This document shows, in pieces, positions 13,793-35,100 of a DNA stretch of 38,632 bases. Under the pieces are notes generated by a model, which ran no database searches, was not told where the DNA came from, and was given only the letters and a program-made list of their open reading frames with translations. Position numbers and translations under genes: made by a program. Each line of letters starts with the position of its first letter. Position 1 is the stretch's first letter. The stretch comes from Chloroflexaceae bacterium (GTDB lineage Bacteria; Chloroflexota; Chloroflexia; Chloroflexales; Chloroflexaceae): assembly GCA_025454695.1 (NCBI GenBank), contig JALONX010000002.1, positions 1 through 38,632 of the forward strand. Direction: 5' to 3'.

Positions 13793-16700
13793 AACTCTCC
13801 CTCTTCCAGCTCCTCGTTTGCCCCATTGGCCACCAGCGCCACGGGCTGGCTGGCCCATACCATCGTGTCAATCATCTCGGCAATGCCCGCCACGGTAGGT
13901 GCGCCAAACAGGTGGCGCAAGGGCAGGTCTACCTGAAAGGTGGTGCGGATACGGGCCAGAATCTGGGTTGCCAGCAAGGAGTGGCCGCCCAGTTCAAAGA
14001 AATTGTCGTGGATGCCAACCTGTTTGAGTTTCAGCACATGCATCCACAACGCCGAAACCTGCTCTTCGGTGGGCGTGCGCGGTGCAACATACTGCCGGGC
14101 CAGTTCGGTGGACTGGCTCCCTGGGGCTGGGAGCGCCCGCAGGTCAATCTTGCCGCTGCGGGTCAGCGGCAGCCGCTCCAGGGCGACAAAGGCGCTCGGC
14201 ACCATGTAATCTGGCAGGCGGGTACGGAGAAAGGAGCGCAACTCCTGAGTGGTGGGCTGCTGGCCGGGCCGCGCAACCGTGTAGGCCACCAGGCGTTTGT
14301 CGCCGGGGCCTTCATCGCGGGCTGTCACCACCGCGTCGGCCAGGGCCGCATGCTCACGTAGCACGGCCTCGATTTCGCCCAATTCCACCCGAAAGCCGCG
14401 AATTTTAACCTGGTGATCCACTCGTCCCAGAAACTCTAGCTGCCCGTCGTTGCGCCAGCGCACCAGGTCGCCAGTTTTGTACATTTTAGATTTTGGATTT
14501 TGGATTTTAGATTGATCTGCACTGTCCGACAATCCAACATCCAACATCGCCAATCCAACATCGAGGAAGCGTTCGGCGGTCAGTTCTGGCCGGTTCAAGT
14601 AGCCACGGGCCAGGCCCGCCCCGCTCAGGCAGAGTTCGCCGGGCACGCCGATGGGCACAGGTTGCAGCTGGGCATCCAGCACAAAAGCTCCGAGGTTGGC
14701 TAATGGCCGCCCGATTGGCACTTCGCGCATGCGGGCTGCCTCAACAGCTGGCGGCACGGGGTACATGGTGGCTACCACGGTCGCCTCGGTTGGGCCATAG
14801 GTGTTAATCAGCTGGACTCGCTCGCCCACATGCTCCTGCCAGGTTGCTACCCGCTCGGGCAAGGCCCGTTCGCCGCCGATAATCAGCAGGCGCAGCGATG
14901 GGGGAAGCGTGAGGCCTTCTTCGGCACTGCGGGCCACCAGTTCGTGCCAGTAGGCCGTGGGCAGGCTGAGCAGGCTGATGTTCCAGGTGCGGCATGTGTC
15001 CAGAAAGCTGGCGATGGTAGCCATCATATCGTCGTTGCGCAGCACCAGGGTGGCCCCGCTGGTAAGCGTGGGGTAAATCTCCTCCACGCTGGCATCAAAG
15101 TTAACCGAGGCAAATTGCAGCACGCGGTCGGCGGCGCTGATGTGGTAGGACTCGCGGGCGGCTTCGGTGTAATGCACCAGCGAGCGATGTTCAATCAGCA
15201 CGCCCTTGGGCACCCCCAGCGAACCAGAGGTGTAGATGACATAGGCCAGGCTGCGCGAGTCGCCCGCGACCGCTGCATTTGCGCCGGGTTGCTGGCTAAT
15301 CAGCGGCCAGTCGGCGTGCAAATCAACAATGAGTCCGCTAAACCAGGGCTTCACGGCTCCATTGTTGTCGTGGGTGAGCACCACCCGAATTGCGGCATCG
15401 TTGCTCATAAACTGGAGCCGTTCAACCGGATAGGTTGGATCGAGCGGCACATAAGCAGCCCCGGCCTTTAGCACGCCAAGCATGGCAACAATCAGGTCAA
15501 ACGAGCGTTCCATGCAGATGCCGACAAGCTCCTCCGGCTGCACCCCCAGCGTGTTCAGGTGGTGGGCCAGCTGGTTGGCCCGCTCGTTGAGCTGGTGGTA
15601 GCTGAGTTGCTGGCCTGTCCATTCCAACGCCGGGGCGTTGGGGGTTCGGGCAACCTGGGCTTCAAACAGTTCGTGGATACGGGCCTGCTCGGAGAAGGGC
15701 CGCGCTATAGCGTTCCATGTGGTGATCTGTTGGCGTTCCGCGTCGGTCAGCAGTGGCAGGTCGGCAATATGACAATTGGCATTAGCGACGATGCCTTCCA
15801 GTAGCATCTGATAGTGGCCCATCATGCGCTCAATCGTCGCGGCTTCAAACAGATCGGTACGGTATTCCGTTACGGCCAGCAAGCCCCTGGGTGTTTCGGT
15901 GAGCGACAGGGAAAGATCGAACTTGGAGGTGCCATTGTCAACCCGAAGAAACTCAACTTCCAAATCGTATTTGGCGCGGGGCGGCACGGGCGCATTCTGC
16001 AAAATAAACATCACCTGAAACAGCGGCGTGTGGCTGGTGTCGCGCACCGGGCGCAACTCCTCCACCAGTTGCTCAAAGGGCACATTCTGGTGGGCGTAGG
16101 CTTCCAGCGTCACCTCGCGCACCCGCTGCAAGAACGTGCGGAAGGTGGGGTTGCCCGACAGGTCGGTGCGCAAGAGTAGCGTGTTTACAAAAAAGCCCAT
16201 TAAGGCTTCAATATCCACAAAATCGCGGTTGGCGATGAGTGAACCGGTGACGATATCTTCTGCGCCGCTGTAGCGGTAGAGCCAGACCTGAAAGGCGGCA
16301 AACAGGGTCATAAACAGGGTTACGCCCTCGTTCTGGCTAAAGGCGGCCAGCTTTGCCGAGAGGTCTGGCGGTAGCTGGTAGTAGTAGAGTGTGCCCTGGT
16401 AGGTGAGCGTGTTGGGGCGTGGATAGTCGCCGGGCAGTTCCAGCACCGGCAGCGTGCCACCTAGTTGCTGTTGCCAGTAGGCGAACTGCTGGGCCAAGAC
16501 CTCGCCCTTGAGCCACTCGCGCTGCCAGATCGCAAAGTCGGGGTATTGCACTACCAGTTCGGGCAGGGGCGAAGGTTCGTTTTTGGTGAAGGCGTCATAG
16601 AGCATGGTCAACTCGCGCAAGAACAAGCCGACTGACCAGCCATCAAAGACAATGTGATGGATGGTGAGCAGAAAGACATGCACCTGTTCAGCCAGGCGCA

Positions 16701-17247: not shown

Positions 17248-20200
17248 CTATCCTACCGATCGCTCCTTGCGTTTCTGTTCCAGCAGGCGCTGGCGTTCTT
17301 CGGGCGAGATACGTTGAAGGCGTAGCCACATCTGGGCGATCTTCTCTGATTGGCCCGGCTGGCCTTCGTGGGCGATAACCAGTGCGCCCAGCGTGGCGAC
17401 GGTGGTGGCCTGAAACAGGCTGCGCAGGGGCAGGTTCACATGGAAGGTTTCGCGCACCCGGTTGAGCAATTGGGTTGCTTTTAAGGAGTGACCACCGATC
17501 TCAAAGAAGTTGTCCTCTACACCGATCTGTTCGCGGCCCAGCACCTGGCTCCACATGCCCACCAGCACCTTTTCCACCGGAGTGCGCGGCGGCACCAGTG
17601 CCCGTGCGGAACGGGTGTGGTCGGGTGCGGGCAAGGCTTTGCGGTCAATCTTGCCGCTTGGCGTGAGCGGGAACTGTTCAAGCAGCACAAAGGCCGACGG
17701 CACCATGTAGTCGGGCAGGCGTTCACGGAGGAAAGAACCCAGAACCGAGAACCCAGAACCTTCTTGAGCCGTGTGCGACGGTTCTGGGTTCTGGGTTCTC
17801 AGTTCTTGCAAGACCACATACGCCACCAGCTGGGGGTCGCCGGTGGCGTCTTCGCGCAGCACCACCACGGCGGCGCGAACGGCGGGGTGCTGTGCCAGCA
17901 GCGTTTCAATTTCGCCTAGCTCGATACGGAAACCGCGCAGCTTGACCTGTTGGTCGCTGCGCCCAAGAAACTCAAGCGCCCCATCGGGCCGGTAGCGGCC
18001 AAGGTCGCCGGTCTTGTAGATTTTAGATTTTAGATTTTGGATTTTGGATTGATCTGCATCTAATCCAAAATCGGCAATCGCAAATCCAAAATTGAGGAAG
18101 CGTTCGGCAGTCAGATCGGGGCGCTGGTGGTAGCCCTGAGCCAGGCCGTCGCCGCCAATGTAGATTTCGCCGGGCACGCCGATGGGCACGGGCTGCATGT
18201 GGTTGTCCAGCACAAAAACCTGCATGTTGTGGATCGGTCGCCCCAACGGAATGGGCTGGTTCAGCGAGTCTGGCGTGACCACATGCCAGGTGGCGTCGGC
18301 GGCCACTTCCGACGATCCATAGAGGTTGAGTAGAGTGCGCCCCGGCAGGCGGCTGTGGAACTGGGCTGCCAGTTCGGTGCTTAGCGCCTCGCCGCTGCTG
18401 ATCCAGAGCTTCAGGGCGGGCAACCGCGCCGCCAGGTCGCCGCCTAGCTGCAAGATGGCCCGCAGCAGCGATGGCACCAGCACCAGCCGACTCACGCGCC
18501 GTTCGGCCAGCACGCCCAGCAGCCGTTCCAGGTCAAGCACCACCTCGTCGGGCAACATCACCAGCGGGCAGCCTGCCATCAGCGGGCCGAAGATTTCCCA
18601 GACTGAGTCAACAAAACTCAAGGCCGTTTTCTGGGCACACACCTCGTCGGCGTGAAATGGAAAGGCCTGCTCCATCCAGGCACTGCGGTTAACGGCCCCG
18701 CGATGGGTGGCCCGCACGCCTTTGGGGCGGCCCGTGGAGCCAGAGGTGTAGATCACATAGGCCAGGTCGCCTCCGCCGACGTGTACAGACGGTGCGTCGG
18801 TGGGTTGGGCTGCGATGGCGGCGGTTTCAGCCCCCACGTTGATGCGCAGCGGGTCGCCACTGGCCGGGGCGGGCAGGCGAGTCGCGCCGATCTCATCAAT
18901 CAACACCAGAATCGGGCCAGCATCGTCCAGCATCAGCGCCAGGCGCTCTGGTGGGTAGCGCGGGTCAAGCGGCAGGTAGGCAGCCCCGGCCTTCAGAATG
19001 CCCAGCAGGGTTGTCACCAATGTCGCCGAGCGGGCCATACACACGCCAACCAGGTTGCCCACCCCACCGCCCTGCCCATGGAGGTAGTGGGCAAGCTGAT
19101 TCGCCCGCTGTTCGAATTCGGCGTAACGCACCTGCTCCAACCCGTCAATCAAGGCGACGGCAGTGGGGACACGGGCCGCCTGCGCCGCCACCAGCGTGTG
19201 CAGCCCGGCGTCGCGGGGGTAGGGCGCGGCGGTTCCATTCCAGGCGTGCAGTTGCTGGCGCTCCGCCTCGGTAAGTAGCGGCAGGTGGTTGATGCCACAG
19301 TCGGCATCGGTCACAATCCGTTCCAATAGCACCTGGTAGTGGCGCAGCAGGCGAGCAATCGTTTCGGCATTAAACAGGTCGGTGCGGTATTCAGCTGCCG
19401 CCCGCATGCCATCAGGCATTTCGGTGAGCGAAAGGGTAAAATCATATTTTGAGGTACCGTTATCCACCCGCAGAAACTCAACCCGCAAATCGTTCTGGGA
19501 AACGCTTGGCACCGGCGCATTTTGCAGAATAAACATCGTCTGAAACAGCGGCGTGTGGCTGGTGTCGCGGGGTGGTTTGAGGGCTTCAATCAGCTGCTCA
19601 AAGGGCACATTCTGGTGGGCAAAGGCTTCCAGTGCCCCCTCGCGCACCCGCTGCAAAAAGGCCCGAAAGCTGGGGTTGCCCGCCATGCTGGTGCGTAGCA
19701 GCAGGGTATTGGCAAAAAAGCCTAGCAGGTTTTCAATATCCACAAAATCGCGGTTGGCGATCATCGAACCGGTGATGATGTCGTCTGCATTGGTGTAGCG
19801 GTAGAGCAAGACCTGAAAGGCGGCAAACAGGGTCATAAAAGGCGTCACGCCCTCGTTCTGGCTCAACGCGGCCAGCTTCACCGAGAGTTCCGGGGGAAAC
19901 TGGTGGTAACACACCGCGCCCTCGTAGGTCAGCATCGGCGGGCGAGGGCGGTCGCCGGGTAGTTCCAGCACCGGCAGGCTGCCGCTGAGTTGCTCTTTCC
20001 AGTAGGCCAGTTGCTGCTCTAGCACCTCGCCCTGGAGCCAGTTGCGCTGCCAGATGGCGAAATCGGGGTATTGCACTGCCAGTGGGGGCAGGGGCGAGGG
20101 CAGGTTCTGCGAAAAGGCGTTGTAAAGGATAGTCAGTTCACCTAAAAACAGCCCTACCGACCATGCATCAAACACGATGTGATGAATGTTGAGCAAAAAG

Positions 20201-20730: not shown

Positions 20731-22761
20731 TTATGTCACCTTTTTCTGCTGCAAGGCCTGCTGCCGTTCTGCTGGCGACATGGCCCAGACGCGCTGGAGG
20801 GTGCGGGCAATCATCTCGGTGCGCCCTGGTTGTGGTTCCCGCGCTACGAGATGCTGCGCCAGGGTTGCCACCGTGGGCGCTGCAAACACATCACGCACGG
20901 TAATCGGGATGTGAAACGTTTTACGTACTCGCGATACAATCTGAGTTGCCCGTAGTGAATGACCGCCAAGTTCAAAGAAGTGGTCATCACGGCCAATGGC
21001 TGGCAAAGCTAACACCTCTGACCACATGGTAGCCAGCACCATTTCCAGTGTTGTTTGCGGACTCACTACGGCCTGCTTGCGCCGGGCTTGCGTCCAGTCT
21101 GGCGCGGGCAGGGCTTTGCGATCCACCTTGCCATTGGGGGTTAGCGGAAATGCCTTCAGGATTACAAAGACCGATGGGTTCATGTAATCGGGTAAGCTCT
21201 GGCGTAAAAACGTAATCAAGGCCGAGCGATAGACAACCGGGTCATCAGCGGTGCCAGCATCATCGGACTGAGCCACTACATACGCCACCAGGCACTTGTC
21301 GCCAAAGGTGTCGTCCTGGGCTGCCACCACACAATCGCGCACAGCGGGGTGGCGGGTCAGCACAGCTTCGATCTCACCGAGTTCAATGCGAAAGCCCCGA
21401 ATCTTGACCTGGTGATCGATCCGCCCGAGGAATTCCAACACCCCGTCAGGGCGATAGCGGGCCAGGTCGCCAGTCTTGTACATTTTGGATTTTGGATTTT
21501 GGATTTTCGATTGGCTGGAGTCGTCTGACAATCCAAAATCGGCAATCCAAAATCCAAAATCGAGAAAGCGTTCTGCAGTAAGCTCAGGCCGATTCAAATA
21601 GCCTCGGGCCACGCCCGCGCCGCCAATGTAGATCTCGCCCACTTCGCCAATCGGCACTGGTTGCCGCTGCTCATCAAGCAGATACACCGTAGTGTTGTCA
21701 ATCGGACGGCCAATCGGCGGCGGTCGCTCAATGTCGGGCGGCAACACCGCGTAGGTCGAGTAGGTGGTGGTTTCGCTCGGCCCATAGAGGTTCACCACCC
21801 GCCGGGCGCTGGTCTGGGCATACACCTCGCGCACCAGTTTTGGGGGCAGCGGTTCGCCCGCCAGGTTCACCACCTGCACCGTAGGCGGCAACTCGCCGCC
21901 CCGCAGCAGCATGGCCATCACCGATGGAACGGTGTTAATCATCGTAATGGGCAACTCCGGCGGCACTGTGGGCACATGCAGGCCGTTTTCCGCCACAATT
22001 AGTCCGCCGCCGTAGCAGAGGGGCAGGAAAATCTCGAAGATCGAGAGATCGAAACAGATTGACGTGCCCGCCAGCACCCCGGCAATCTCATCGGCAGTGA
22101 AGGTGCGGCTGGCCCAGTCGAGCATGGCAACGCTGTTACGATGCTCGATTGCTACGCCCTTGGGCACGCCCGTTGAACCGGAGGTGTAGATCAGGTATGC
22201 CAGGTTGTCGGGGCGCACCCCCGCGTTGGGCGCGGCGTCAGACGGTGGCCCCTCGGCGCGGGCCTGTGCCAGCGGGTAGATTGCGCCGCCCCAATCGCCC
22301 AGCCGTCCCGCCACCTCATCGGCGCTGTCCACCAGCAGCAGTTCAGCCCCCGAATCGCGCAGCATAAAGAGCAGCCGTTCCGCCGGGTAGGCCGGGTCGA
22401 GCGGCACATAGGCCCCACCGGCCTTCAGCACCGCCAGCAGCGCCACCACCAGATCAAGCGAGCGGGCCATACACACGCCAACCCGCACCTCCGGCCCAAC
22501 GCCACGCTGCTGCACGGCAATGGCGACGCGGTTGGCCTGCTGGTTAAGTTCAGTGAAGGAGAGCCGTTCAGCGCCGCAGACCGCCGCAAGGGCGTGGGGC
22601 GTGCGGGCCACCTGGGCCTCAAACAGCTGGTGGATGCAGAGATGCTCAGGGTATGGGTGGGCGGTTGCGTTCCAGCCTTGAAGCGTGCGCCACAACTCGG
22701 CGTCACCCGTGTTGTCCGTCAACAACTCCCCATGTGTTATGGCACCGTTGAAACTCACCAT
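20731..22761 (-). CDS. NRPS protein A-PCP without condensation domain, Ala-like code
   Basis: 676 residues: a short lead (from VSFNGAITHG), A domain (about 35-560, YTSGSTG near 195), PCP (FELGGHSLR near 600) and a basic tail (SPAERQQALQQKK). The hand-read code is DLFNNALTY-K, an Ala code, identical to the first A domain of the trimodular NRPS. The protein has no C domain, while the protein encoded just upstream has C and PCP but almost no A domain; the two may act as one split module, the upstream C using the aminoacyl-PCP made here. ATG 22761 is chosen because GGAGGG sits 4 bases upstream and the frame beyond it reads through the end of the upstream gene in low-complexity Arg/Pro-rich sequence. 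The gap to the upstream stop is 31 bp. Confidence 0.93.
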   Translation of the reverse strand: MVSFNGAITHGELLTDNTGDAELWRTLQGWNATAHPYPEHLCIHQLFEAQVARTPHALAAVCGAERLSFTELNQQANRVAIAVQQRGVGPEVRVGVCMARSLDLVVALLAVLKAGGAYVPLDPAYPAERLLFMLRDSGAELLLVDSADEVAGRLGDWGGAIYPLAQARAEGPPSDAAPNAGVRPDNLAYLIYTSGSTGVPKGVAIEHRNSVAMLDWASRTFTADEIAGVLAGTSICFDLSIFEIFLPLCYGGGLIVAENGLHVPTVPPELPITMINTVPSVMAMLLRGGELPPTVQVVNLAGEPLPPKLVREVYAQTSARRVVNLYGPSETTTYSTYAVLPPDIERPPPIGRPIDNTTVYLLDEQRQPVPIGEVGEIYIGGAGVARGYLNRPELTAERFLDFGFWIADFGLSDDSSQSKIQNPKSKMYKTGDLARYRPDGVLEFLGRIDHQVKIRGFRIELGEIEAVLTRHPAVRDCVVAAQDDTFGDKCLVAYVVAQSDDAGTADDPVVYRSALITFLRQSLPDYMNPSVFVILKAFPLTPNGKVDRKALPAPDWTQARRKQAVVSPQTTLEMVLATMWSEVLALPAIGRDDHFFELGGHSLRATQIVSRVRKTFHIPITVRDVFAAPTVATLAQHLVAREPQPGRTEMIARTLQRVWAMSPAERQQALQQKKVT
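21483..21562. repeat. In-frame TTTTGGATTTTGGA palindromic element, copy 4 (A7-A8 loop)
   Basis: Left arm (21483-21512) and right arm (21530-21562) of GGATTTT/AAAATCC units. Encodes FLDFGFWIADFGLSDD...SKIQNPKSKM before YKTGDLARY. Confidence 0.9.
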
Positions 22762-22792: not shown

Positions 22793-24937
22793 TCAGGCAA
22801 GGCCGCGCTCCTGGCGTTTCTGTTCCAGCAACTGGCGCTTCTCCTCCGGCGAGGCGCTGCGCAGCCGGTTGAGGGCGCGGGCGATCTTCTCGGTCTGGCC
22901 GGGGCGGGGTTCGCTGGCAATAATCAGTTCGGCCATCGCGGCGACCGTGGTGGCCTCAAACAAACGGCGCATGGGCAGATCCACCCGGAATAACTCGCGC
23001 ACGCGGGAAAGCAGGCGGGCCGCGCTTAACGAATGGCCGCCTAGCTCAAAAAAATCATCATGCACACCGATGCGCTCCTGGCCTAGAATGGTCGTCCAGA
23101 TCAGGGCGATCTCTTCTTCCACTGGCGTGCGGGGCGCAACAAAGGGCCGCGCTTCCCGGCGCTGAGTCTGCGTTTCGCCCGCCGCCGTCAAAATATCCAT
23201 GGTGCCATCGGCTCGGTAGCGGGCGCGGCGGTCGGTTTTGTAGAGCCGCGCCTCGGGCGCAGGGCTGAAAGGATGGGCAACGGCGCGGGCCGGGTCTCGT
23301 TCCAATCCAACAGGCGCGGCGGCCTCCAGGCCCGTGTCGCTGATGTAAAGGTCGCCGGGCACGCCAATCGGCGCCAGCTGCATGTGGGCATCCAGCAGGT
23401 AGATCTGGGCTTCCTCGCTCCAGGCCAGCAGTTGGTGCGCTTCACCCGCTGGCAGCATGGGCAACGCGGTAATTGGCTGGCCAGCGCTGGTGGGCAGGCT
23501 TTCCAGCAAGGTCTGGTAGTGGGCCAGCATGCGCTCAACCGTTGCCGCATCAAACAGGTCGGTGTTGTAGAGCATTGTTGCCACCAACCCGGCTTCGTTT
23601 TCGCGCACCGAAAGTGAAAGGTCAAAGCGGGCTGTGCCCAGGTCAACATTCAGCGCCTGCATGGTCGTGTCGCCCTGCTTCATCGCCGGGCGGGGGGCGT
23701 TTTGCAGCGCAAACATCACCTGAAACAGCGGGCTGCGGCTGCTGTTCTGGCTGGGCTGAAACTCCTCCACCAGCCGTTCAAAGGGCAGCTCCTGATGGTC
23801 GTAGGCTCGCAGCGTCGTCGCCCGCACCCGACGGAGCAGCTCGCGGAAGCTGGGCGCGCCGCTCAGATCGCCATGCAGCACCAGCATGTTGTTGAAAAAA
23901 CCAATCATGCCTTCCAGTTCGTCCTGGTTGCGGTTGGCAATGGGCGACCCGACCAGAATGCTGGGCTGGCTGCTGTAGCGGTGCAGCAGCGTTTGAAACG
24001 CCGCCAGCAGCGTCATAAACAGGGTTGCGCCTTCCTGCTTGCTCAGGGCCTGGAGTGCTGTGGCCAGCTGGCGACTGAGGTGCAGGTGCTGCTTGGCCCC
24101 GTTGGCGGTGAAGCTGGGCACCGTGGGGCGGGGGCGGTCGGTGGGCAGGTTGAGGGCGACGACCTTGCCGCCAAGCTCGTTTTTCCAGTAGGCCAGTTGC
24201 CGTTCCAGCAGTTCGCCCTGCAAGCGCTGGCGCTGCCAGGCCGCATAGTCGCCATACTGAATGGGCAACTCGGGCAGGGGCGAGGGTTTCCCGGCGCTAA
24301 ACGCGCCGTAGAGGGCGATAATCTCTCGCAGAATGACCCCCATTGACCAGCCATCGAAGATGATGTGATGCAGCGTCAGTGCCAGCATGTGGCGCTGCTC
24401 ATCCAATCGCAGCAGCAGCCCCCGTAGGAGCGGCCCCGCGGCCAGGTCAAAGGGGCGCTGCCCTTCGGCGATGATGCGCCGCAAGGCCTCGGCTTCGCGC
24501 TCGTCGGTGGGGCATTCGATCACATCCTGGCGGGCCAGTGTCAGCCGCAGCTCCGGTGCAACGATTTGCACCGGGCTGTCGTTGACGCTGCGAAAGGTGG
24601 TGCGCAGCAGCTCGTGGCGGCGCACAATCTCGTTCAGGCTCCGTTCTAGCACGGCGATGTTGAGCGGGCCGTCGAGCTTCATCACCAGCGGCATGTTGTA
24701 AAAGGCGCTGCCGGGCTGGAACTGATCGAGCAGCCAGAGCCGCTGCTGCCCAAACGAAAGCGGGGCTGGGTCGCTGCCCGTGCGCCGTGGGATACTGCGC
24801 TCGTCCGGCGGCGGGGCTTCGGTTGTGTCCACCACATGTGAACTGGCTTCTTGCGCCGCCCGCTTTTTCAGCAGCAGTTCCAGCAGTTTGCGCTGGTCGG
24901 GCGAAAGCGTGTCGAGTTGAGTCTGAATATCGCTCAT
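22793..24937 (-). CDS. NRPS protein C-(adenylation remnant)-PCP
   Basis: 714 residues. N-terminal helical linker (LSPDQRKLLELLLKKR), complete C domain (about 57-490, HHIIFDGWS near 190, later ELPFERLVEEF), then only about 100 residues where an A domain of over 500 is expected, then an intact PCP (FELGGHSLS, Ser near 636) and a basic tail (SPEEKRQLLEQKR). The remnant keeps the segment around IYLLDAHMQ and PIGVPGDLYI and a damaged A7 region (YKTDRRARYRADG); motifs A1-A5 and A8-A10 are gone. The frame stays open, so the protein is made as C-PCP. The PCP must be loaded in trans or skipped. The start ATG overlaps the acylase stop (ATGA), which implies translational coupling. Confidence 0.93.
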   Translation of the reverse strand: MSDIQTQLDTLSPDQRKLLELLLKKRAAQEASSHVVDTTEAPPPDERSIPRRTGSDPAPLSFGQQRLWLLDQFQPGSAFYNMPLVMKLDGPLNIAVLERSLNEIVRRHELLRTTFRSVNDSPVQIVAPELRLTLARQDVIECPTDEREAEALRRIIAEGQRPFDLAAGPLLRGLLLRLDEQRHMLALTLHHIIFDGWSMGVILREIIALYGAFSAGKPSPLPELPIQYGDYAAWQRQRLQGELLERQLAYWKNELGGKVVALNLPTDRPRPTVPSFTANGAKQHLHLSRQLATALQALSKQEGATLFMTLLAAFQTLLHRYSSQPSILVGSPIANRNQDELEGMIGFFNNMLVLHGDLSGAPSFRELLRRVRATTLRAYDHQELPFERLVEEFQPSQNSSRSPLFQVMFALQNAPRPAMKQGDTTMQALNVDLGTARFDLSLSVRENEAGLVATMLYNTDLFDAATVERMLAHYQTLLESLPTSAGQPITALPMLPAGEAHQLLAWSEEAQIYLLDAHMQLAPIGVPGDLYISDTGLEAAAPVGLERDPARAVAHPFSPAPEARLYKTDRRARYRADGTMDILTAAGETQTQRREARPFVAPRTPVEEEIALIWTTILGQERIGVHDDFFELGGHSLSAARLLSRVRELFRVDLPMRRLFEATTVAAMAELIIASEPRPGQTEKIARALNRLRSASPEEKRQLLEQKRQERGLA
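23120..23425 (-). pseudogene. Residual fragment of a deleted adenylation domain, inside the C-PCP protein
   Basis: The fragment between LLAWSEEA and RPFVAPRTPVEEE holds A-domain pieces from after A5 (AQIYLLDAHMQ, PIGVPGDLYI) and around A7 (LYKTDRRARY, where sister domains have YKTGDLARY). The nucleotide-binding P-loop, the substrate pocket and the catalytic A10 lysine are missing, so it cannot adenylate. Two separate in-frame deletions best explain the pattern. No clear copy of the A7-A8 repeat remains. Confidence 0.8.
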
Positions 24938-27348
24938 CGGCTGCCCTCAGGGGTTAAGGTCAGGGTGGCGGCGGCGTTTTGCTCCACCTTCTCGCGGCTG
25001 AAGGGCACGGGAATATACTGCACGTCCTCCCACATCTCAATCATGTCGGTGCGGTTGGCGTGGCGCACCAGGCCGCTCTGGCCGGTGCTGTGAATGGCCT
25101 GCATGCCGTCAATATCGCTCATATCAATCACTTCCCGCTGCGACGCGCCGTGGGCCATGCTGAAGGGATCCTGGAACGTAAAGGTGCCCGTGTTGATGCT
25201 AAAGTTCTCGCCACGAGCCTCAATCGGCGGCACGCCGTAGAGCCAGACAAACAGCGGGTTGCCGCTGCGGGCCAGCAAACTGACATAGCTCACCTGGTGA
25301 ACGTTGCCCCAGCGCCAGCCGTTGGTGTCGGTGCCGTGGTTTTCCTTAAGCCAGTTCAGGGCCTGGCCCAGGCTGCGCTGCATAATCTCGTCGCGGGTTT
25401 CGACCTGTGGTGTCTTCTTGTCGTCGAACCAGCTGTTGTTGGGGTCGCGGATAATCTGGGTCATCGCGGTGATGTGGAAGCGCCCGTGCCGTTCATACTG
25501 GCCGTCAAGGTAGTCTTTGGCCAGCGTTTCGCTCATGTCGTCGCGCAGGGTGTTCTGGAAGATAAACCAGTACCAGGTCTGGAAGATCGTCCCCGCCACT
25601 GTGTCGGCCTCAAAGTGCAAATCCCAATTTCTGAGCAGCTCAATCGCCCGCGCCTCCTCTTCGTTGCTGGGCTTAATTTCCAGCATGTAGGCGCGGAAGT
25701 TGCCCGCCGGGATCGAGTAGGTGTCGGCCTGCATCTGCTGACTGGTGGCAACATCCATGCGGTAGTTACCTTCCAGCAGTTCGGTGATGCGCTGGGCGCG
25801 GTAGCCCGGATCCCACTCCTCGGTGATCTTGTAGGGGTAATCGTCGCCGATGACTTTGTTGTTGGCGGTGGCGATAAAGCCACGGGGCGGGTTGTAGACA
25901 AACGGCAACTCGTCATAGGGAATAAAACCCTGCCATTCATACTCGCCCGTCCAGCCTGGCACTGGCACCAGGCCGCTGTGTTGTTCGGCGCGAATGGGGA
26001 TCTGGCTGGTCATCTGGTAGCCGATGTTGCCCTCGGTGTCGGCATACACAAAGTTCTGCCCCGGCAGATGCCAAGTGCGCAGGGCCTCACGGAACTGCTC
26101 CCAGTTCTGGGCGGTGTTCAGCTTTAGCAGCGAGGCGAAGAGCTGACTATCGCCGAGTTTGGCCCACTTAAACGCCATCGGCTCGGCCTGCTTCATGTCC
26201 TCCACCACTTCGTTGATAATCGGCCCATGGCGGGTGATGTAGATATTCAGCGGCACGGACTCGCCGCCGTTGACCTTCAGCGTGTCGCGGATGATCTCCA
26301 GGTCTTGCCACTGGCCCTGATACTCGTACTTCGTGGGGTTGGCGCGGTCGTCAAGCTTTTCGATGTAGAGGTCTTGCACGTCGGGGTTGAGGTTGGTCAC
26401 TGCCCAGGCAATCTTGCCGTTGTGGCCGATAATTACCGAAGGCACGCCGGGCAAGGTAAAGCCGGTGCTGTTGAAGCGCCCGCCGTGCAGTCCGTTCATG
26501 TACCAGATCGAGGGCATCGAAAGGTTCATGTGGGCATCGCCCGCCAGAATGGGCTTGCCGCTGACGGTGCGGTTGCCAGCCACTACCCAGTTGTTGCTGC
26601 CCCAGGTGGCGGCGGGGTCGCCGACCCACTGCACGGGCGCATCCAGCGCGGCAAACGGCACGCCCTTCATCCATTCGTAGCCCCGCACCTCGTCGGGAAT
26701 AATAAAGGGTGTGCTAGGATCAAAGGCGGGCAGCAGGTCGCGAGTTTTCTGCTCGCCAATCTCGGCAATCAGCCGCGCCCGCAGAAATTCCAGGCGGTAG
26801 TTCCCGGCCAGGTAGAGGCTGATCAGGTTGCCATACACGATTGAGTCCACCGGCGTCCATGGTTCGGGGGAGTAGCGCAGCACCGTAAATTCAATCGGCA
26901 GCTTGTTGCGGTTGGTGTTGATAAAAGCATTTACCCCATCGGCGTAGGCTTGCAGCAGCGCCTTCGAGTCGGCATCCATGTTGGCCCATTCCTGCTCGGC
27001 CCCCCGCCGCAGCCCCAGCGTGCGCAAAAAGCGGTCGGCGTCTACCCCTGGTTCGCCAATCGCTTCCGCCAGCTTTCCACTTGCGGTCAGCTGGTTAAAA
27101 TACATTGACCAGAGGCGATCCTGGGCATGCACATAACCCTGGGCCATAAAGAGGTCGCGCTCGTTCTCGGCATAGATGTTGGGCACGCCCCACTTGTCGC
27201 GCAGCACCTGCACCGGGGCGCTGAGGCCCGGCACCGCCAGGGTGCCACTAGTCTGGGGCCAGGGGTTGCGCACAAACCATGTGCCAAAACCAACGAGCAC
27301 CAGCACTAACACCAGTGCGCCAAGCAGTACATTACGAAAAATTTTCAT
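24934..27348 (-). CDS. Penicillin acylase family Ntn-hydrolase, membrane-anchored
   Basis: 804 residues. One N-terminal hydrophobic segment (about 7-24, VLLGALVLVLVLVGFGTWF) acts as a signal anchor. The alpha-chain region has VQVLRDKWGVPNIYAE and AQGYVHAQDRLW, typical of the penicillin amidase family. The beta chain begins at the autocatalytic nucleophile Ser251 in TWGSNNWVVAG; HNGKIAWAVTN and the Asn-rich centre follow. Family members cleave amide-linked acyl groups after self-processing into two chains; PvdQ removes the fatty acid from the pyoverdine precursor. Its place between the FAAL/PKS genes and the downstream NRPS genes suggests it trims the acyl chain of the product outside the membrane (inference), or degrades signalling amides. 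GGAGG lies just before the ATG; the stop overlaps the next NRPS start by four bases. Confidence 0.92.
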   Translation of the reverse strand: MKIFRNVLLGALVLVLVLVGFGTWFVRNPWPQTSGTLAVPGLSAPVQVLRDKWGVPNIYAENERDLFMAQGYVHAQDRLWSMYFNQLTASGKLAEAIGEPGVDADRFLRTLGLRRGAEQEWANMDADSKALLQAYADGVNAFINTNRNKLPIEFTVLRYSPEPWTPVDSIVYGNLISLYLAGNYRLEFLRARLIAEIGEQKTRDLLPAFDPSTPFIIPDEVRGYEWMKGVPFAALDAPVQWVGDPAATWGSNNWVVAGNRTVSGKPILAGDAHMNLSMPSIWYMNGLHGGRFNSTGFTLPGVPSVIIGHNGKIAWAVTNLNPDVQDLYIEKLDDRANPTKYEYQGQWQDLEIIRDTLKVNGGESVPLNIYITRHGPIINEVVEDMKQAEPMAFKWAKLGDSQLFASLLKLNTAQNWEQFREALRTWHLPGQNFVYADTEGNIGYQMTSQIPIRAEQHSGLVPVPGWTGEYEWQGFIPYDELPFVYNPPRGFIATANNKVIGDDYPYKITEEWDPGYRAQRITELLEGNYRMDVATSQQMQADTYSIPAGNFRAYMLEIKPSNEEEARAIELLRNWDLHFEADTVAGTIFQTWYWFIFQNTLRDDMSETLAKDYLDGQYERHGRFHITAMTQIIRDPNNSWFDDKKTPQVETRDEIMQRSLGQALNWLKENHGTDTNGWRWGNVHQVSYVSLLARSGNPLFVWLYGVPPIEARGENFSINTGTFTFQDPFSMAHGASQREVIDMSDIDGMQAIHSTGQSGLVRHANRTDMIEMWEDVQYIPVPFSREKVEQNAAATLTLTPEGSR

Positions 27349-27399: not shown

Positions 27400-30300
27400 T
27401 TACTCGTCTTCACCCTCACCATCCTCACGTTGGCGCAGCCCCTGCCGAGCGCGGCGCTTTTCGCGGCGGCGCTCGCCCCGACTACGGCCCACGTCCTGTT
27501 CGGGCTGCTGGGCCTCGTCCTGTTCCAGCAGCTTCGCTAGCGCACTCACCGTCGGCCCTTCATACAGGCTCACAGTAGGAATGGGCTTGTTGAAGCGCTC
27601 TTTCAGTCGCCCGATCAGGGTAATGCCACTGAGCGAGTTTCCGCCCAGATCAAAGAAGTTGTCGTGAATGCCCACCTGCTGCACGCCCAGCGTCGCCTGC
27701 CAGAGTTCGGCAATGCTGCGCTCGGTCTCGTTGCGCGGCGCGATGTAGGGGTTGGGCAGGTTCGGGCGCGGGTGGAGCGTGGTCGCCTCCGTTGGTGTTG
27801 CGGCAGCCCCTTCGTGCAGCCCGGCGAGCTGCACCCAGCGCTGCATACGCCCATGCAGGTCGCCGGTCGAAACCACCACCTGCGGCAGCGGCCCGGCGGC
27901 CAGCATGCGCTCAAAGGCGTCGCTTCCTTCCGCCGCCGTCATTGCAAAGGCCGACGACTGCTCCTGGCTGGTCAGTTGCTGGCGCTGCTCATCGGTTACT
28001 TCCCATGCATCCCAGTTGACACTGAGCCAGGGCACCGGGCTATGGCGGTTGTGCTGCTGCGCAATCGCATCCATACAGCTGTTGGCAGCGGCATAGGCCC
28101 CAAAGCCTAGCCCACCAAGCACTGCCGCCAGCGACGAGGCGAGCATGGTGAAGTCCAGCGGGCGGTCAGCCAGGGCCTGCTCCAGGGCCAGCGTGCCATA
28201 GACTTTGGTTTGAAAATGCTGCTCGCAGGCGGCATAGTCGGCCTCTTGCAACACGCCGAAGAACTGCTTGCGTACCAGCCCCGCCGCGTGAATCACGCCG
28301 TGCAGTGCGCCAAACTGTGCCTCAAGCTGCACCAGCGCCGCCCGCAGTTGCTCGGGCCGGGTCACGTCCGCCGTGAGCGGCAGCACCGTGGCCCCCAACT
28401 CCTCCAGCTCACGCACTGCGCGAATGCGGCGGCTGGTTTCGTCGTTGTGAGACGCCAGCCACTCGTCCCAGTGCTGGCGGGGCGGCAAGTCGGTGCGGGC
28501 CAGCAGGGCCAGTTTTGCCTGGGCAGATTGGGCCAGGTGGCGGGCCAGGGCCAGGCCCAGCCCCCCAAAACCACCGGTAATCAGGTAGACGCCGCCGGGG
28601 CGCAGTCGGCTTTCGCCACGCTCCAGGCGCACCGGCTCAAAAGCCTGCTCCCAGCGCCGCCCGTCACGGTAGGCCAGCACCCCGCCCGCTGTCGGCGCAA
28701 GGCACTCGGCCAGCAGCTGATCAGCGAGTTGCGGGCCGTGCCAGTCGCCCGGCGGCGGCAGGCTCACATCCACACTCTGGCAGCTGATGTGCGGATATTC
28801 CTGGGGAATAACTTTGCACAGCCCCAGCAGGGTGGCTTTTTCCGGGCTAAAATTCGTTTCACCCGCCACGTGTTGCATGTTGCTGGAAAGCATGAGCAGA
28901 TGGACGGGCGGGGCGCTGGCCTGGTTGCCCAGGGCTTGCGTGAGCGCCAGCAGGCTGTAGAAGCCGCGCTCCTGGGCTGCCGCAAAGCTCGCCGCCGTGA
29001 GGGTGGCCTGTGTCGGCGGGGTCACGCTCCAGGCATGCACAATGCCGTCGGGCTGCCAGCCGTGCGCGTGCAGGTCGGCCAGCAGCGCCTCGTAGTCGGC
29101 CCGTTCCCCTGGGTTCAGCGTGTAGAGTTGCTGGTCGAGCCGGGCGAAGACCTGGCCCGGCTGCACCACCACCACGTCGCGCTTGTGCTGGTGCAGCCGC
29201 TGCACCAGCCCGCTACTCAGGCTACTTGCATCGGCAAAAACCAGCCAGCGTGCTGGCCCACCATCGGCCCCATGTGGCGGTAGGGCGGGCTTCCAGAAGG
29301 GCAGGCTGAACCAGTCGGCAATCTCACTCCGTTTCTGCAACGGCTGGGTAGCAGCGGACTCATAGGCCAGTTTGAGCGGTTCGAGCCAGTAGCGCTGGCG
29401 CTCAAAGGGGTAGGTCGGCAGGGCCACCCGCCGCCGCTGTTCGCCCGCGTAGAGCCGTTCCCCTTCTACCTCCACGCCAGCCAGCCAGAGCTTGCCCAGC
29501 GTGCCCAGCAGAAACGCCCGGTCGGGCTGCTTATCGTTGGGGTGGCGCAGCGAATGTAAGATCGTCTGGCTGGCGACGCGGGCGGGGTGCTGGCGGGCCA
29601 GCGTGGCGAGCGTCTGGCCGGGGCCAACTTCCAGCAGCACGGTGTTGGGGTCGCGCAGTAGTTCTTGTAAGCCATCAGCAAATCGCACCGCCTGGCGCAG
29701 GTGGCTGGCCCAGTAGCCGGGGTCGGTGGCCTGCTCCGCCGTGATCCATGTACCAGTCACATTCGAGATAAATGGCCGTTCTGGGGCCTGCAGCGCTATC
29801 TGGCCCACCAGCGCCGTAAACGGCTCCAGGATCGGATCCATCATCGCCGAATGGAAGGCGTGGGAGGTGTGCAGGCGGCGGCAGTTGAGGCCATGGGCGC
29901 TGAGTTGCCGTTCTAGTTGCTCCACCGCTTCCACCGGGCCAGAGACCACACATAGCCCCGGCCCATTAACCGCGGCCAGCGACAGCTCGGAATCGAGCAG
30001 CATGGTGACTTCGGCTTCGGCCAGCGGCACGGCCAGCATTGCGCCGGGCGGCAGTTGCCCCATCAGCCGCCCACGAGCCGCCACCAGCGCCAGGCCATCT
30101 TCCAGGCGAAACACGCCCGCCAGACATGCGGCCACATACTCGCCGATGCTATGGCCAATCATCGCCCACGGCTCCAGCCCACGGCTCAGCCAGAGCTGGG
30201 CCAGCGCATATTCCAGCGCGAAGAGGGCCGGTTGGGTGTATTGGGTCTGATCGACAAGAGAACCCAGAACCGAGAACCGAGAACCGGTACCATTGGCCGA

Positions 30301-32085
30301 ATCAGTTGGTTCTTGGTTCTGGGTTCTCGGTTCTTGCAGTATGATCTGGCGAATGTCCCGCCCCAGGTGCGGTTGCAGCAGCTCGGCGCAGCGGTCAAGG
30401 GTGTCGCGAAACACCGGCTCATCGCGGTAGAGGCCCGCAGCCATGCCCGCGTATTGGGCACCCTGGCCAGAAAACAGAAACACCAGCGGGCGCTCGCCCG
30501 GTTCCTGGTAACCCGACAGGAGTCGCTCCGGGTCGAAGCTTTCCAGGGCGTGCAGGGCATCGTCGCGGTCGCGGCCCACCAGGGTGCGGCGGTGGCTAAA
30601 GGCCCGTCGCCCTACATGCAGTGTGTATGCCACATCGGCCAGGTTCAGCTCGGGGTGCTCGCGCAGGTAGGCCGCCAGGTTGGCACACTGCCAGTCCAGG
30701 GCGGTGCCGGTTTTGGCCGAAAAGGTGAGCAACTGCCAGGGGCGGGGCGGGTCGCTGGGCGGCAGCGGCGGCGCTTCTTCCAGCACGGCATGCACATTGG
30801 TGCCGCCCATGCCAAAGGAGCTGACGCCCGCCCGGCGGGGATGGCCGTTTCGGAACCATTCTGCCAGCGTTGTGTTAACATAAAATGGGCTATTCGCAAA
30901 ATCAATCTGCGGGTTGGGCGCGGTGTAGTGCAAGCTAGGCGGAATGCGGCGGTGGGTCAGGGCCAGCGCGGTTTTGATCACGCCCGCTACGCCCGCCGCC
31001 GTGTCCAGGTGGCCAATATTGGTTTTAAGCGAACCAAGGGCGCAGTAGCCCCGTTTGTCGGTGCCCGCCCGAAAGGCCTGGGTCAGGGCGGCGATCTCAA
31101 TCGGGTCGCCCAGGCTGGTGCCGGTGCCGTGGGCTTCTACATAGCTGATGCTTGCGGGGTCAACCCCCGCCACGGCCTGGGCCATGGCGATCACGGCGGC
31201 CTGGCCATCCACGCTGGGTGCCATGTAACTCACCTTCACCGCACCGTCGTTGTCAATGGCTGAGCCACGAATCACGGCGTAGATCGTGTCGCCATCTTCG
31301 AGCGCGTTTTCCAGCCGTTTCAGCACCACCACACCCGCGCCGTGGCCGTTCACAAAACCTTTTGCATGCACGTCAAAGGCCCGGCAATGGCCATCGGGCG
31401 AGGTCGCGCCGCCCTCCTGGTAGAGGTAGCCCGCCTTTTCAGGGAAGTGAATGGAAACGCCTCCGGCCAGTGCCATGTCAGCCTCGTAGTTCAGCAGGCT
31501 CTGGCAGGCCACATGGATGGCGGCCAGCGAGGTGGACGAGGCCGTCTGCACCGTAATACTCGGCCCGGTGAGGTTGAGTTTGTAGGCTACCTCACTGGTC
31601 AGGCTGTCTTTGTCGTTGCCAATCGAGGCCTGCAAACTATCTACCGAGGCGACCATGCGCATGTGGGAAAAAACATTGTGGAGCAGGTAGGTGTTGAGGC
31701 TGGAGCCGCCAAACACGCCGATGCGCCCGCTGTAGCGCTCCGAGTCGTAGCCCGCGTGTTCCAGGGCCGTCCAGGCGCATTCCAAAAACAGGCGATGCTG
31801 GGGATCCATCAGCTCGGCCACATGGGGGCTATGTCCAAAAAAGGCCGCGTCGAAATAGTCGGCATCGCCCAGTGCGCCCCTGGCCCGCACATAGTTGGGC
31901 AGCTTCAGCAGTTCCGGCTCAATCCCCTCTGCCAGCAGTTCTTCATCCGAGAAGAACGAGATTGACTCAACGCCAGCGCACAGGTTCTGCCACAACTCAT
32001 CTACCGAGTGTGCCCCAGGAAAGCGGCCCGCCATGCCAATAATGGCGATGCCATCCAGTGCTGCGTCCGTTTCGGTTTCACTCAT
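27400..32085 (-). CDS. Type I PKS module KS-AT-KR-ACP with Ser in place of the KS cysteine
   Basis: 1561 residues. KS (about 8-430) has the His motifs EAHGTGT and KTNIGHL, but the nucleophile motif reads TASSTSL (Ser183) where TACSTSL is expected. AT (about 530-860) has GHSIGEY and HAFHS, the malonyl-CoA signature. KR (about 1090-1380) has the NADPH loop GGFGGLG and S-Y-N residues in the SSLAAVLGGLGFGAYAAAN region (quoted in part); LDD of B-type KRs is absent. ACP near 1484 (LGGNSLSG) and a highly charged tail (RGERRREKRRARQ) complete it. There is no DH or ER, so a beta-hydroxy product is expected if extension occurs. AGAGGAG precedes ATG 32085, 26 bp after the FAAL-NRPS stop. A palindromic repeat interrupts the AT in-frame (30259-30335). 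Confidence 0.95.
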   Translation of the reverse strand: MSETETDAALDGIAIIGMAGRFPGAHSVDELWQNLCAGVESISFFSDEELLAEGIEPELLKLPNYVRARGALGDADYFDAAFFGHSPHVAELMDPQHRLFLECAWTALEHAGYDSERYSGRIGVFGGSSLNTYLLHNVFSHMRMVASVDSLQASIGNDKDSLTSEVAYKLNLTGPSITVQTASSTSLAAIHVACQSLLNYEADMALAGGVSIHFPEKAGYLYQEGGATSPDGHCRAFDVHAKGFVNGHGAGVVVLKRLENALEDGDTIYAVIRGSAIDNDGAVKVSYMAPSVDGQAAVIAMAQAVAGVDPASISYVEAHGTGTSLGDPIEIAALTQAFRAGTDKRGYCALGSLKTNIGHLDTAAGVAGVIKTALALTHRRIPPSLHYTAPNPQIDFANSPFYVNTTLAEWFRNGHPRRAGVSSFGMGGTNVHAVLEEAPPLPPSDPPRPWQLLTFSAKTGTALDWQCANLAAYLREHPELNLADVAYTLHVGRRAFSHRRTLVGRDRDDALHALESFDPERLLSGYQEPGERPLVFLFSGQGAQYAGMAAGLYRDEPVFRDTLDRCAELLQPHLGRDIRQIILQEPRTQNQEPTDSANGTGSRFSVLGSLVDQTQYTQPALFALEYALAQLWLSRGLEPWAMIGHSIGEYVAACLAGVFRLEDGLALVAARGRLMGQLPPGAMLAVPLAEAEVTMLLDSELSLAAVNGPGLCVVSGPVEAVEQLERQLSAHGLNCRRLHTSHAFHSAMMDPILEPFTALVGQIALQAPERPFISNVTGTWITAEQATDPGYWASHLRQAVRFADGLQELLRDPNTVLLEVGPGQTLATLARQHPARVASQTILHSLRHPNDKQPDRAFLLGTLGKLWLAGVEVEGERLYAGEQRRRVALPTYPFERQRYWLEPLKLAYESAATQPLQKRSEIADWFSLPFWKPALPPHGADGGPARWLVFADASSLSSGLVQRLHQHKRDVVVVQPGQVFARLDQQLYTLNPGERADYEALLADLHAHGWQPDGIVHAWSVTPPTQATLTAASFAAAQERGFYSLLALTQALGNQASAPPVHLLMLSSNMQHVAGETNFSPEKATLLGLCKVIPQEYPHISCQSVDVSLPPPGDWHGPQLADQLLAECLAPTAGGVLAYRDGRRWEQAFEPVRLERGESRLRPGGVYLITGGFGGLGLALARHLAQSAQAKLALLARTDLPPRQHWDEWLASHNDETSRRIRAVRELEELGATVLPLTADVTRPEQLRAALVQLEAQFGALHGVIHAAGLVRKQFFGVLQEADYAACEQHFQTKVYGTLALEQALADRPLDFTMLASSLAAVLGGLGFGAYAAANSCMDAIAQQHNRHSPVPWLSVNWDAWEVTDEQRQQLTSQEQSSAFAMTAAEGSDAFERMLAAGPLPQVVVSTGDLHGRMQRWVQLAGLHEGAAATPTEATTLHPRPNLPNPYIAPRNETERSIAELWQATLGVQQVGIHDNFFDLGGNSLSGITLIGRLKERFNKPIPTVSLYEGPTVSALAKLLEQDEAQQPEQDVGRSRGERRREKRRARQGLRQREDGEGEDE
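30259..30335. repeat. In-frame GGTTCT palindromic element, copy 4 (inside the PKS acyltransferase)
   Basis: 27-base left arm (30259-30285), 22-base spacer, 28-base right arm (30308-30335), the same architecture as the three NRPS copies. Read as LQEPRTQNQEP...SRFSVLGSL between GRDIRQII and DQTQYTQPALFALE, a variable linker before the AT core. Confidence 0.9.
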
Positions 32086-32111: not shown

Positions 32112-35100
32112 CTATGAGCCAGCCCGGTTGCGGGCCAACTCCTTACGCCGGTCGCGAAAGGCTTTCTGCTTCTGTGCCCGGTCTTGAAATTCGGCAAACG
32201 ATGGCTCGGCGGGAAGCCCCTGGCCCAGATGCGCCGCCAGCGTGCCCACGGTGGGGTGGCGGAACATGTCAATCAGCGTCAGCTGCGGGTAGCTGGCCCG
32301 TAGCTCGCTATGCACCTGCACCAGCAGCAGCGAATGGCCGCCAAGCTCGAAGAAGTTATCGTGGATGCCCACATGTTCCACCTTCAGCGCTGCCTGCCAG
32401 ACCGCCGCAATCTGGTGTTCAAGCTCGCTGCGGGGGGCCAGAAAGGCGGCGCTGCGTTCCAGGTGTGCGTCACTCGGTGCAGGCAGCCGCCGCACATCCA
32501 CCTTGCCGTTGGGCGTCAGCGGCATCCTCTCCAGCAGCACAATCGCCGCAGGCACCATGTAGGCGGGCAGGCGCTCGCGCAGATGCGATTGGAGATTGGA
32601 AATTGGAGATTGACCATTAGTCATTAACGATTGACCCTTCGACAAGCCCTTCGATAAACTCAGGGGGGGCCTCAGGGCAGGCGGATTGACGATTGACGAT
32701 TGGGTGTCAGCAATAGCAGATGCCTGTTCCAAGCCATCCTCTGCGTCTCTGCGTCTCTGCGTCTCTGCGTTTTGCAAGACCACATATGCCACCAGGCGCT
32801 TATTGCCGGGGGTGTCTTCGCGGGCGGTGACAAAGGCTTCATGCACGGCGGGGTGCTGGCTTAGCACGGTTTCGATTTCGCCCAGCTCGATGCGGAAGCC
32901 CCGCAGCTTCACCTGGTGGTCGCTGCGCCCCACATATTCAATCAGCCCATCGGGCAGCCAGCGGGCGCGGTCGCCAGTTTTGTAGACCGGGGACGGAAGA
33001 CCGACGACCGACGCCAACCGATCTTGTTCAGATGGTGTGACTTCCGTCTCCCGTCTCCGGTCTCCGGTCACCAGAAAGCGTTGGGCGGTGAGGGCCGGGT
33101 CGGCGAAGTAGCCACGGGCCAGGCCCATGCCGCCCACATACAGCTCACCAGGGACGCCGATGGGCACCGGGTGCATGCGCTCATCGAGAATGTAGACCTG
33201 GGTGTTGAGCAGCGGGCGACCAATGGGGATGTAGCTGCTGGTGGGCGGGCGCTGCGGGTTCACATGGTAGAAGGTCGAGCAGACGGTGGTTTCGGTCAGC
33301 CCGTAACCATTGGAGATAGTGGTGGTTTGCACCAGGCGGTTGATGTCGCTGTACGCCAGGGCTTCGCCGCCGCTGAGGAGCAGCCGCAGTTCGGGCAACT
33401 GGTCGGCCCGTCCGTTTAAGCGGGCAATCAGCGAAGGCACGGCGCTGAGCATGGTCACATGGCGCTGGCGCATCAGGGCAAACAGGGCCTCGAAGTCCAG
33501 CACCTCCAGGGCATTGGGCAGCACCAGCGCACCACCGGTGCAAAGCGGCGGGAAAATTTCGCCCACAAAACTGGCCGAGGCCAGCGAGGTCAGCGGCAAC
33601 ATGCGGTCGCTGCTGCCTGGCTCGTAGGAACGCACAAACGACTCAATCAGATTGACGATGCCATGGTGGGTCAGCACCACGCCTTTGGGCTGCCCGGTGG
33701 AGCCGCTGGTGTAGATTACACATGCGGCATTATCGGGCGTTGGTTCAGCCACAGGCGGCAGTGAGTCTAATTCGGTAGCACTGGCGAGTGATTGCAGGCT
33801 ACAGATTACACCGTGCCAATCTGCAATCTGCAATCTGCCTTCTGCAATCTCCTGGTCGGCCAGCAGCACCGGCGCACCAGTCTGGTGCAGAATAAAGCTC
33901 AGCCGCTCGGCGGGGTAGGTTGGGTCAAGCGGCACATAGGCTCCCCCGGCCTTGAGAATGGCCAGAATGCCCACCATCATTTCCACCGAACGCTCGGCGC
34001 AGATGCCTACCAGCGTTTCTGGCCCTACCCCCAGACCCCGCAGCCGCCGGGCCAGGCTGTTGGCGCGCTCGTCTAGTTCGCCGTAGCGCATCTGGTCAGC
34101 GCCACTGATCACCGCCACGGCGTCCGGTGACCGTTGGGCCTGGGCCGCAAACAGTTGGTGGATGCACAGGGCGGGGATGGGCGTGGTGTCGCCGCTACTC
34201 CATTCAAGCAGCAGTTGCTGGCGCTCGGCCTGGCTGAGCAACGGCAGATCATCAACAAGTTGCTGCGGGTCGGCCACCACCGCCGCCAGAATTGTTTCCA
34301 GGTGCTGGGCCATGCGGCGGGCTGTGGCTCCATCAAACAGATCACTGTTGTATTCCAACGTCGCCACCATGCCGCCATGCACCTCGCCCATCGCCAGCGA
34401 CAGGTCGAACTGGGCCATTGTCTGCGGCAGCGCAAAGGGCGCAAACTGTAGCTCGCCCACCTGAATCTGGCTCGCTTCGGCCCCAACCGCAAAAGCGGTC
34501 AGGTCGGTCTGCTCGCGAGCGTGGGCTTTTTGCAGCGCAAACATCACCTGAAACAGCGGCGAACGACTCAGGTCGCGCTGAAGGCCCATCCGTTCAACCA
34601 GGCTCACAAAGGGGTAGTCGCCGTGGGCAAAGGCGGCCAGGCTGGTCTGGCGCACCCGCCCCAGCAGGTCGCTAAAGCGCGGCTCACCGGCCATGTCGGC
34701 CCGCAGCACCACGGAGTTGACGAAGTAGCCAACCAGGCCGCTCAACTCGGCCCGGCTGCGCCCGGCGGTGGGCGTGCCAATCAGAAAATCGGCCTGGCCG
34801 CTGTAGCGGTAGAGCAGCACCTCAAACGCGGCCAGCAGCACATGGTAGAGCGTGGCGTGCTGGGCCTCGGCCAGCGCCTTGAGTCCAGCTGTTACCGTAG
34901 CAGAAAGGCTAAATTGGTAGGCCGCGCCGTTATAGGTTTGCAACGGCGGGCGCGGGCGATCCGGGGGCAGGTTCAGGGTCGTCGCCGCCCCGTCCAGCTG
35001 CCCCCGCCAGAACTGCCACAGCCGTTCGCCTTCGCTTCCGGCCAGCAACTCGTGCTGCCAGCGCACATAATCGCCAAAATCCAGCGGCAGTGGCGCAAGC

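Follow-up and report, generated by a model that had tools for sequence, protein, structure and literature searches.

A conserved subdomain of the adenylation core between the condensation and carrier domains of an A-less NRPS protein in Chloroflexota

Locus and protein architecture

The window, i.e. the whole stretch of DNA that we analysed, comprises 38,632 nucleotides of a Chloroflexaceae bacterium assembly (GCA_025454695.1, contig JALONX010000002.1). We examined a 714-aa ORF on its minus strand (22793..24937), also the strand of the domains, neighbouring genes and inserts located below, which Pfam and TIGR01733 assigned to a C-[A remnant]-PCP architecture. The condensation (C) domain (residues 58-504; 23426..24766; PF00668, E 1e-109) and the PCP domain (residues 610-672; 22922..23110; PF00550, E 8e-15) enclose a fragment of an adenylation (A) domain at about residues 508-584, within the interval 23120-23425 that corresponds to residues 505-606 of the ORF. 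Neither AMP-binding (PF00501) nor AMP-binding_C (PF13193) gave a Pfam match in the 714-aa protein. The TIGR01733 model (amino acid adenylation) matched residues 509-583 with its positions 301-375 of 409 (E 1.5e-7), and a PDB search with the fragment alone gave 50 distinct sequences at E<=1, most of them A domains of NRPSs; with a best E of 7e-14, the fragment is no chance match.

The fragment is composed of two conserved blocks and the sequences that connect them. At the left joint (residues 505-509, A-W-S-E-E; 23411..23425) the end of the C-A linker is fused to the A core, followed by block 1 (residues 510-536, AQIYLLD...PIGVPGDLYISDTG; 23330..23410), a free, drifting loop (residues 537-545; 23303..23329), block 2, which carries an altered A7 motif (residues 546-583, ERDPARAV.HPF...YKTDRRARYRADGTMDI; 23189..23302), and finally the right joint with a variable linker (residues 584-597; 23147..23188), where A8, A_sub and A10 are missing. 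Among the core motifs A3, A5, A7, A8 and A10, the protein retains nothing but an A6-A7 stretch with A7 altered: a functional A domain is absent in cis, with A1-A5 and A8-A10 missing and the A7 Asp replaced. The HHxxxDG motif of the C domain is kept (HHIIFDG here, HHIVFDG in the two orthologues described below, from genomes G049 and G052), as is the GGxS motif of the phosphopantetheine Ser (GGHSL in all three copies).

Three neighbouring genes are relevant to this protein. A free-standing A-PCP protein without a C domain, whose A domain is intact (20731..22761; TIGR01733 E 1e-130), is a candidate trans-loader. Its specificity code, judged by the motifs, resembles DLFNNALTYK, a code for Ala. Upstream lie a penicillin-amidase-family protein (24934..27348; PF01804), which also precedes the G052 orthologue (75% identity), and a PKS module, KS-AT-KR-ACP (27400..32085), which presumably supplies the C domain with its acyl chain. 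The window and G052 share the order PKS ACP, penicillin-amidase-family protein, C-remnant-PCP, while in G049 two PKSs, the second with a terminal sulfotransferase domain, precede C-remnant-PCP, which is followed by C-A-PCP-C. The C-remnant-PCP unit is thus kept in two gene contexts, both with a PKS module upstream. In G049 no A-PCP gene is adjacent: the C-A-PCP-C gene comes next and then the contig ends. The G052 contig (C1090) stops inside the C-remnant-PCP gene. We considered another G052 contig, C1183, with a free-standing A-PCP (L051), as its continuation and rejected it, since the flanking ORFs (one ending in A7-A8-PCP motifs before, a C-domain ORF after) show another locus. Free-standing A-PCP genes therefore exist away from the C-remnant-PCP gene too.

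Several other features were observed in these assembly lines. The G049 sulfotransferase domain follows the PKS ACP, directly before the C-remnant-PCP gene (L039:6639-12854, minus strand). The penicillin-amidase-family protein, which stands in an assembly-line operon, has a weak match to the PvdQ model, and the region 32112-37658 encodes two AMP-binding domains, the first perhaps a fatty-acyl ligase; together they may point to an acylated precursor that is deacylated later. An in-frame insert of roughly 25-30 residues occurs in four A domains of the window (7670-7792, 14467-14589, 18004-18126 and 21466-21588), each time at the same position between A6 and A7 (LDFGF..ADFG...QSKIQNPKSK). The insert consists of repeats of the GATTTTGG and CCAAAATC types, which could fold into a hairpin, and it is missing from the remnant. 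Finally, the sole MbtH-like gene that we found in the window genome (L106, G000:C469:1-180) lies at a contig end, with its C-terminal TDMRP motif in another frame.

Extent of the loss and distribution of the short form

The first module of G007:C956, a full C-A-PCP module whose C domain is 59% identical, was the nearest intact relative that we found. It is the closest non-orthologous C domain found and the same joints can be aligned to it; it differs in that its A domain is complete, A8 and A10 included, and in the PCP-ending NRPS protein upstream, where the window protein has a PKS. Aligned to this module, the fragment falls at A6-A7 and ends just before A8. The left gap, between the C-A linker (LLAWS) and AQIYLLD, amounts to about 338 residues, and the right gap, before the A-PCP linker, to about 107 residues (A8, A_sub, A10), i.e. 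a combined in-frame loss of 445 residues, close to the 450 of the original prediction. Two in-frame losses from a C-A-PCP ancestor, as that prediction proposed, are the simplest origin. The middle fragment is indeed there, though it runs from A6 to A7 rather than on the A5-A7 side; and of the two joints described as clean, the left one is clean and conserved in the orthologues, whereas the right one (residues 585-597) varies in sequence among them. The A7 motif reads YKTDRRARYR in place of YKTGDLARYR. The Asp of A7 holds the ribose in A domains, and its loss in the change from TGDL to TDRR implies that catalysis was lost.

Among 60 relatives searched, the same short form was present in G052:C1090 and G049:C232, two MAGs from another family of the same order. 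Identity over remnant and PCP is 70% and 67%, respectively, and whole-protein identity to both is 72-73%, remnant included, with identical architecture and joints. At the order level, 3 of 82 genomes have the short form (two families, two genera), and the same three were the only ones among 158 genomes of the class. When 400 genomes were drawn evenly across the phylum, apparently without G049 and G052 among them, the window genome itself was the sole match. A scan of contigs recovered one true orthologue, JAFAYS010000168.1 (a Chloroflexota MAG), apparently identical to G052, and the remaining matches were intact modules or PCP-only, judged by match span. Four further candidates were set aside: A3, A5, A6, A8 and A10 motifs precede the PCP of G045:C12, the corresponding stretch of G052:C1010 carries A3-A8 motifs, and G052:C581 and G049:C152 show no A motif before the PCP.

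The depth of conservation is thus limited to one order of Chloroflexota. In rpoB, the window genome is 78-79% identical to G049 and G052, which are 96% identical to each other. The C domains are 75% identical between the families and yet only 82% within the G049/G052 genus, a pattern that makes transfer between lineages possible; for this reason we do not claim strict vertical descent of the short form.

Selection on the remnant and its predicted structure

We compared substitution rates among the three copies. For blocks 510-536 and 546-583 taken together, pN/pS (NG86) was 0.22, 0.16 and 0.27 in the three pairs (Fisher 1.7e-9, 2.4e-12 and 2.9e-6, in the same order), in a test that comprises three sequences with a cross-family dS of 1.4-1.6 over the remnant. 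Pooled, the loop (537-545) and the right joint (585-597) gave 0.87, 0.88 and 0.81, values indistinguishable from 1. The blocks, at 0.16-0.27, are far from the pN/pS near 1 of a decaying pseudodomain. Between orthologues, the C domain had a dN/dS of 0.14-0.24, and the PCP region (598-672) had the lowest among the named domains (0.04-0.14). In addition, at thirteen positions in the remnant and at its left edge the three copies agree on one residue that departs from the intact-A consensus (a residue shared by at least 60% of the 42-53 intact modules that align at the position), including G569D, D570R, L571R, T548D, A549P and F552A. Judged from these sequences, the remnant evolves like a functional domain, and its blocks are constrained for a role other than catalysis.

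These results bear on how the locus had been read originally. The observation of a truncated A domain between intact C and PCP motifs is confirmed, and the suggestion that the C-PCP part is still useful agrees with those motifs (HHIIFDG, GGHSL) and with a dN/dS of 0.04-0.24 over all pairwise comparisons of the two domains. The description of the fragment as damaged, a scar left by decay, is contradicted: 3 of the 82 genomes of the order share the short form and its conserved residues, and the blocks are under purifying selection with invariant residues of their own. The interpretation as a whole is therefore partly supported.

AlphaFold with a 56-row alignment predicted the protein with a mean pLDDT of 91 and a pTM of 0.87. 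Ten-residue means were 92-96 over residues 501-530, 71 for 531-540 and 92-94 over 551-580, with values below 50 at 538-544, in the loop, and about 66-70 at the second joint. The 56 rows included intact modules and so bias the geometry of the model towards the intact arrangement; from the three orthologues only, the model was poor (pLDDT 37). In Foldseek, the predicted structure aligned with condensation-state modules of LgrA over 1031-1074 columns (query TM 0.73-0.74), across C, remnant and PCP together, a placement partly imposed by the input alignment. Chain B of PDB 6eby is a 77-residue A-domain chain over the same stretch as the remnant, so such a fragment has already been handled as a unit. 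We take this chain to be the part of FscH at the interface with an MbtH-like protein (MLP), crystallised with the MLP FscK.

Proposed role, alternatives and known systems

We propose that the protein is probably an A-less C-PCP module that is loaded in trans and keeps the A6-A7 subdomain as a folded, non-catalytic spacer. An ancestral C-A-PCP module would have lost most of its A domain, a loss fixed long ago, and the final A-core subdomain (A6-A7, residues 510-583) would have stayed between C and PCP. From its ACP, the preceding PKS module would pass the chain to the C domain, while the PCP would receive its amino acid from a trans-acting A domain, for which the neighbouring A-PCP is the candidate in the window. 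The retained subdomain may set the length and orientation with which the PCP reaches the acceptor site of the C domain. Several points count against this account: the G049 copy, on a contig that ends after the next gene, has no adjacent A-PCP, the G052 contig stops within the gene, and the A-less C-PCP modules known to us do without such a spacer; the biased geometry of the model and the three sequences behind the selection test weigh against it as well.

Other explanations were weighed against the trans-loaded module with a spacer. The most serious of them, which we nevertheless regard as rather improbable, is that no amino acid is ever loaded on the PCP and that the module is skipped or merely hands the chain on. 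The lack of an A domain in cis and of an adjacent loader in G049 would fit such a relay; the kept HHxxxDG motif and the low dN/dS of the C domain and, above all, of the PCP would be needless in a skipped module. Less probable still is a docking mini-domain, in which the remnant, as an MLP contact region, would still bind an MLP or a trans A domain. It draws on the coincidence of the remnant with the 77 residues of 6eby chain B and on the presence of MbtH genes in all the remnant genomes (one in the window genome, two each in G049 and G052) and their absence from G007, the genome with the intact module. The residues that would make the contact are against it. MLP-contacting alanines have been described at SlgN1 428/433, TxtA 378/383 and ObiF1 841 (PMC11355689, PMC7593251, PMC6668435). 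Their equivalents here, mapped through the EntF sequence, published numbering, a spacing of five and an assumed tag length, are residues 549 and 554: the former is Pro in all three copies, the latter is Ala in the window and Pro in G049 and G052, and the helix LTAERF is changed to DPARAV. Docking of an MLP by the remnant, possible in principle, is thus disfavoured and appears unlikely.

That the remnant is a roleless leftover of two deletions has very little probability in our judgement: the two in-frame gaps and the destroyed A7 motif are what a neutral scar would leave behind, but the same form is found in two families, its blocks have the low pN/pS and the 13 fixed residues reported above, and it is still in frame and predicted to fold after a dS of 0.6-1.6. 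An assembly artefact or chimera, which a MAG fragmented into 936 contigs might raise, can practically be dismissed, since independent orthologues at 72-73% identity in two other assemblies have identical junctions.

More tentatively, and with lower confidence than the trans-loaded module itself, the subdomain at the end of the A core could be a dedicated non-catalytic interdomain part, either a spacer or a docking platform for trans A domains, at PKS-to-NRPS junctions of Chloroflexota. If so, it would be a natural case of a module that was dismantled and yet retained one subdomain; we found no description of a conserved leftover A subdomain in the literature that we searched. The case also bears on NRPS engineering, where it matters at which points an A domain can be cut. 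With about 445 residues lost and a 77-residue unit, predicted to be folded, kept, the protein offers a natural pair of cut points, the left joint conserved and the right one tolerant, in a protein long under selection. It raises the question of what must stay between C and PCP for condensation under trans loading.

C-PCP modules that have no A domain of their own and rely on one in trans are already established. In WS9326A biosynthesis, Cal19 is an A-less C-PCP protein that works with Cal22/Cal23, and viomycin is likewise a case (PMC7539972). As in the window, a C-PCP without A stands in an assembly line with intact active motifs, and free-standing A proteins occur in the same cluster or genome; the difference is that the window protein keeps a conserved A-core subdomain with a predicted fold, and that its trans loader is a putative one. 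Module 9 of SyrE with SyrB1, and modules of the ramoplanin and enduracidin systems, are complemented by stand-alone A-T proteins, and in syringomycin SyrC shuttles the Thr (PMC8949500). Such a split module, C-T in line and A-T separate, resembles our C-remnant-PCP and its neighbouring A-PCP, which is adjacent in the window and not beside the G049 copy. FscH has been described together with its MLP FscK (6ea3; PMC11253843). The 6eby chain B covers the same A-core stretch at a length nearly equal to the remnant, but it is a laboratory construct, and the natural remnant is without the MLP-contact alanines in most copies. Finally, albicidin has an inactive yet complete A domain that is complemented in trans (PMC8949500). 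There too A function was lost with C and PCP kept; albicidin keeps the whole A domain, whereas the window protein keeps only 77 of about 520 residues.
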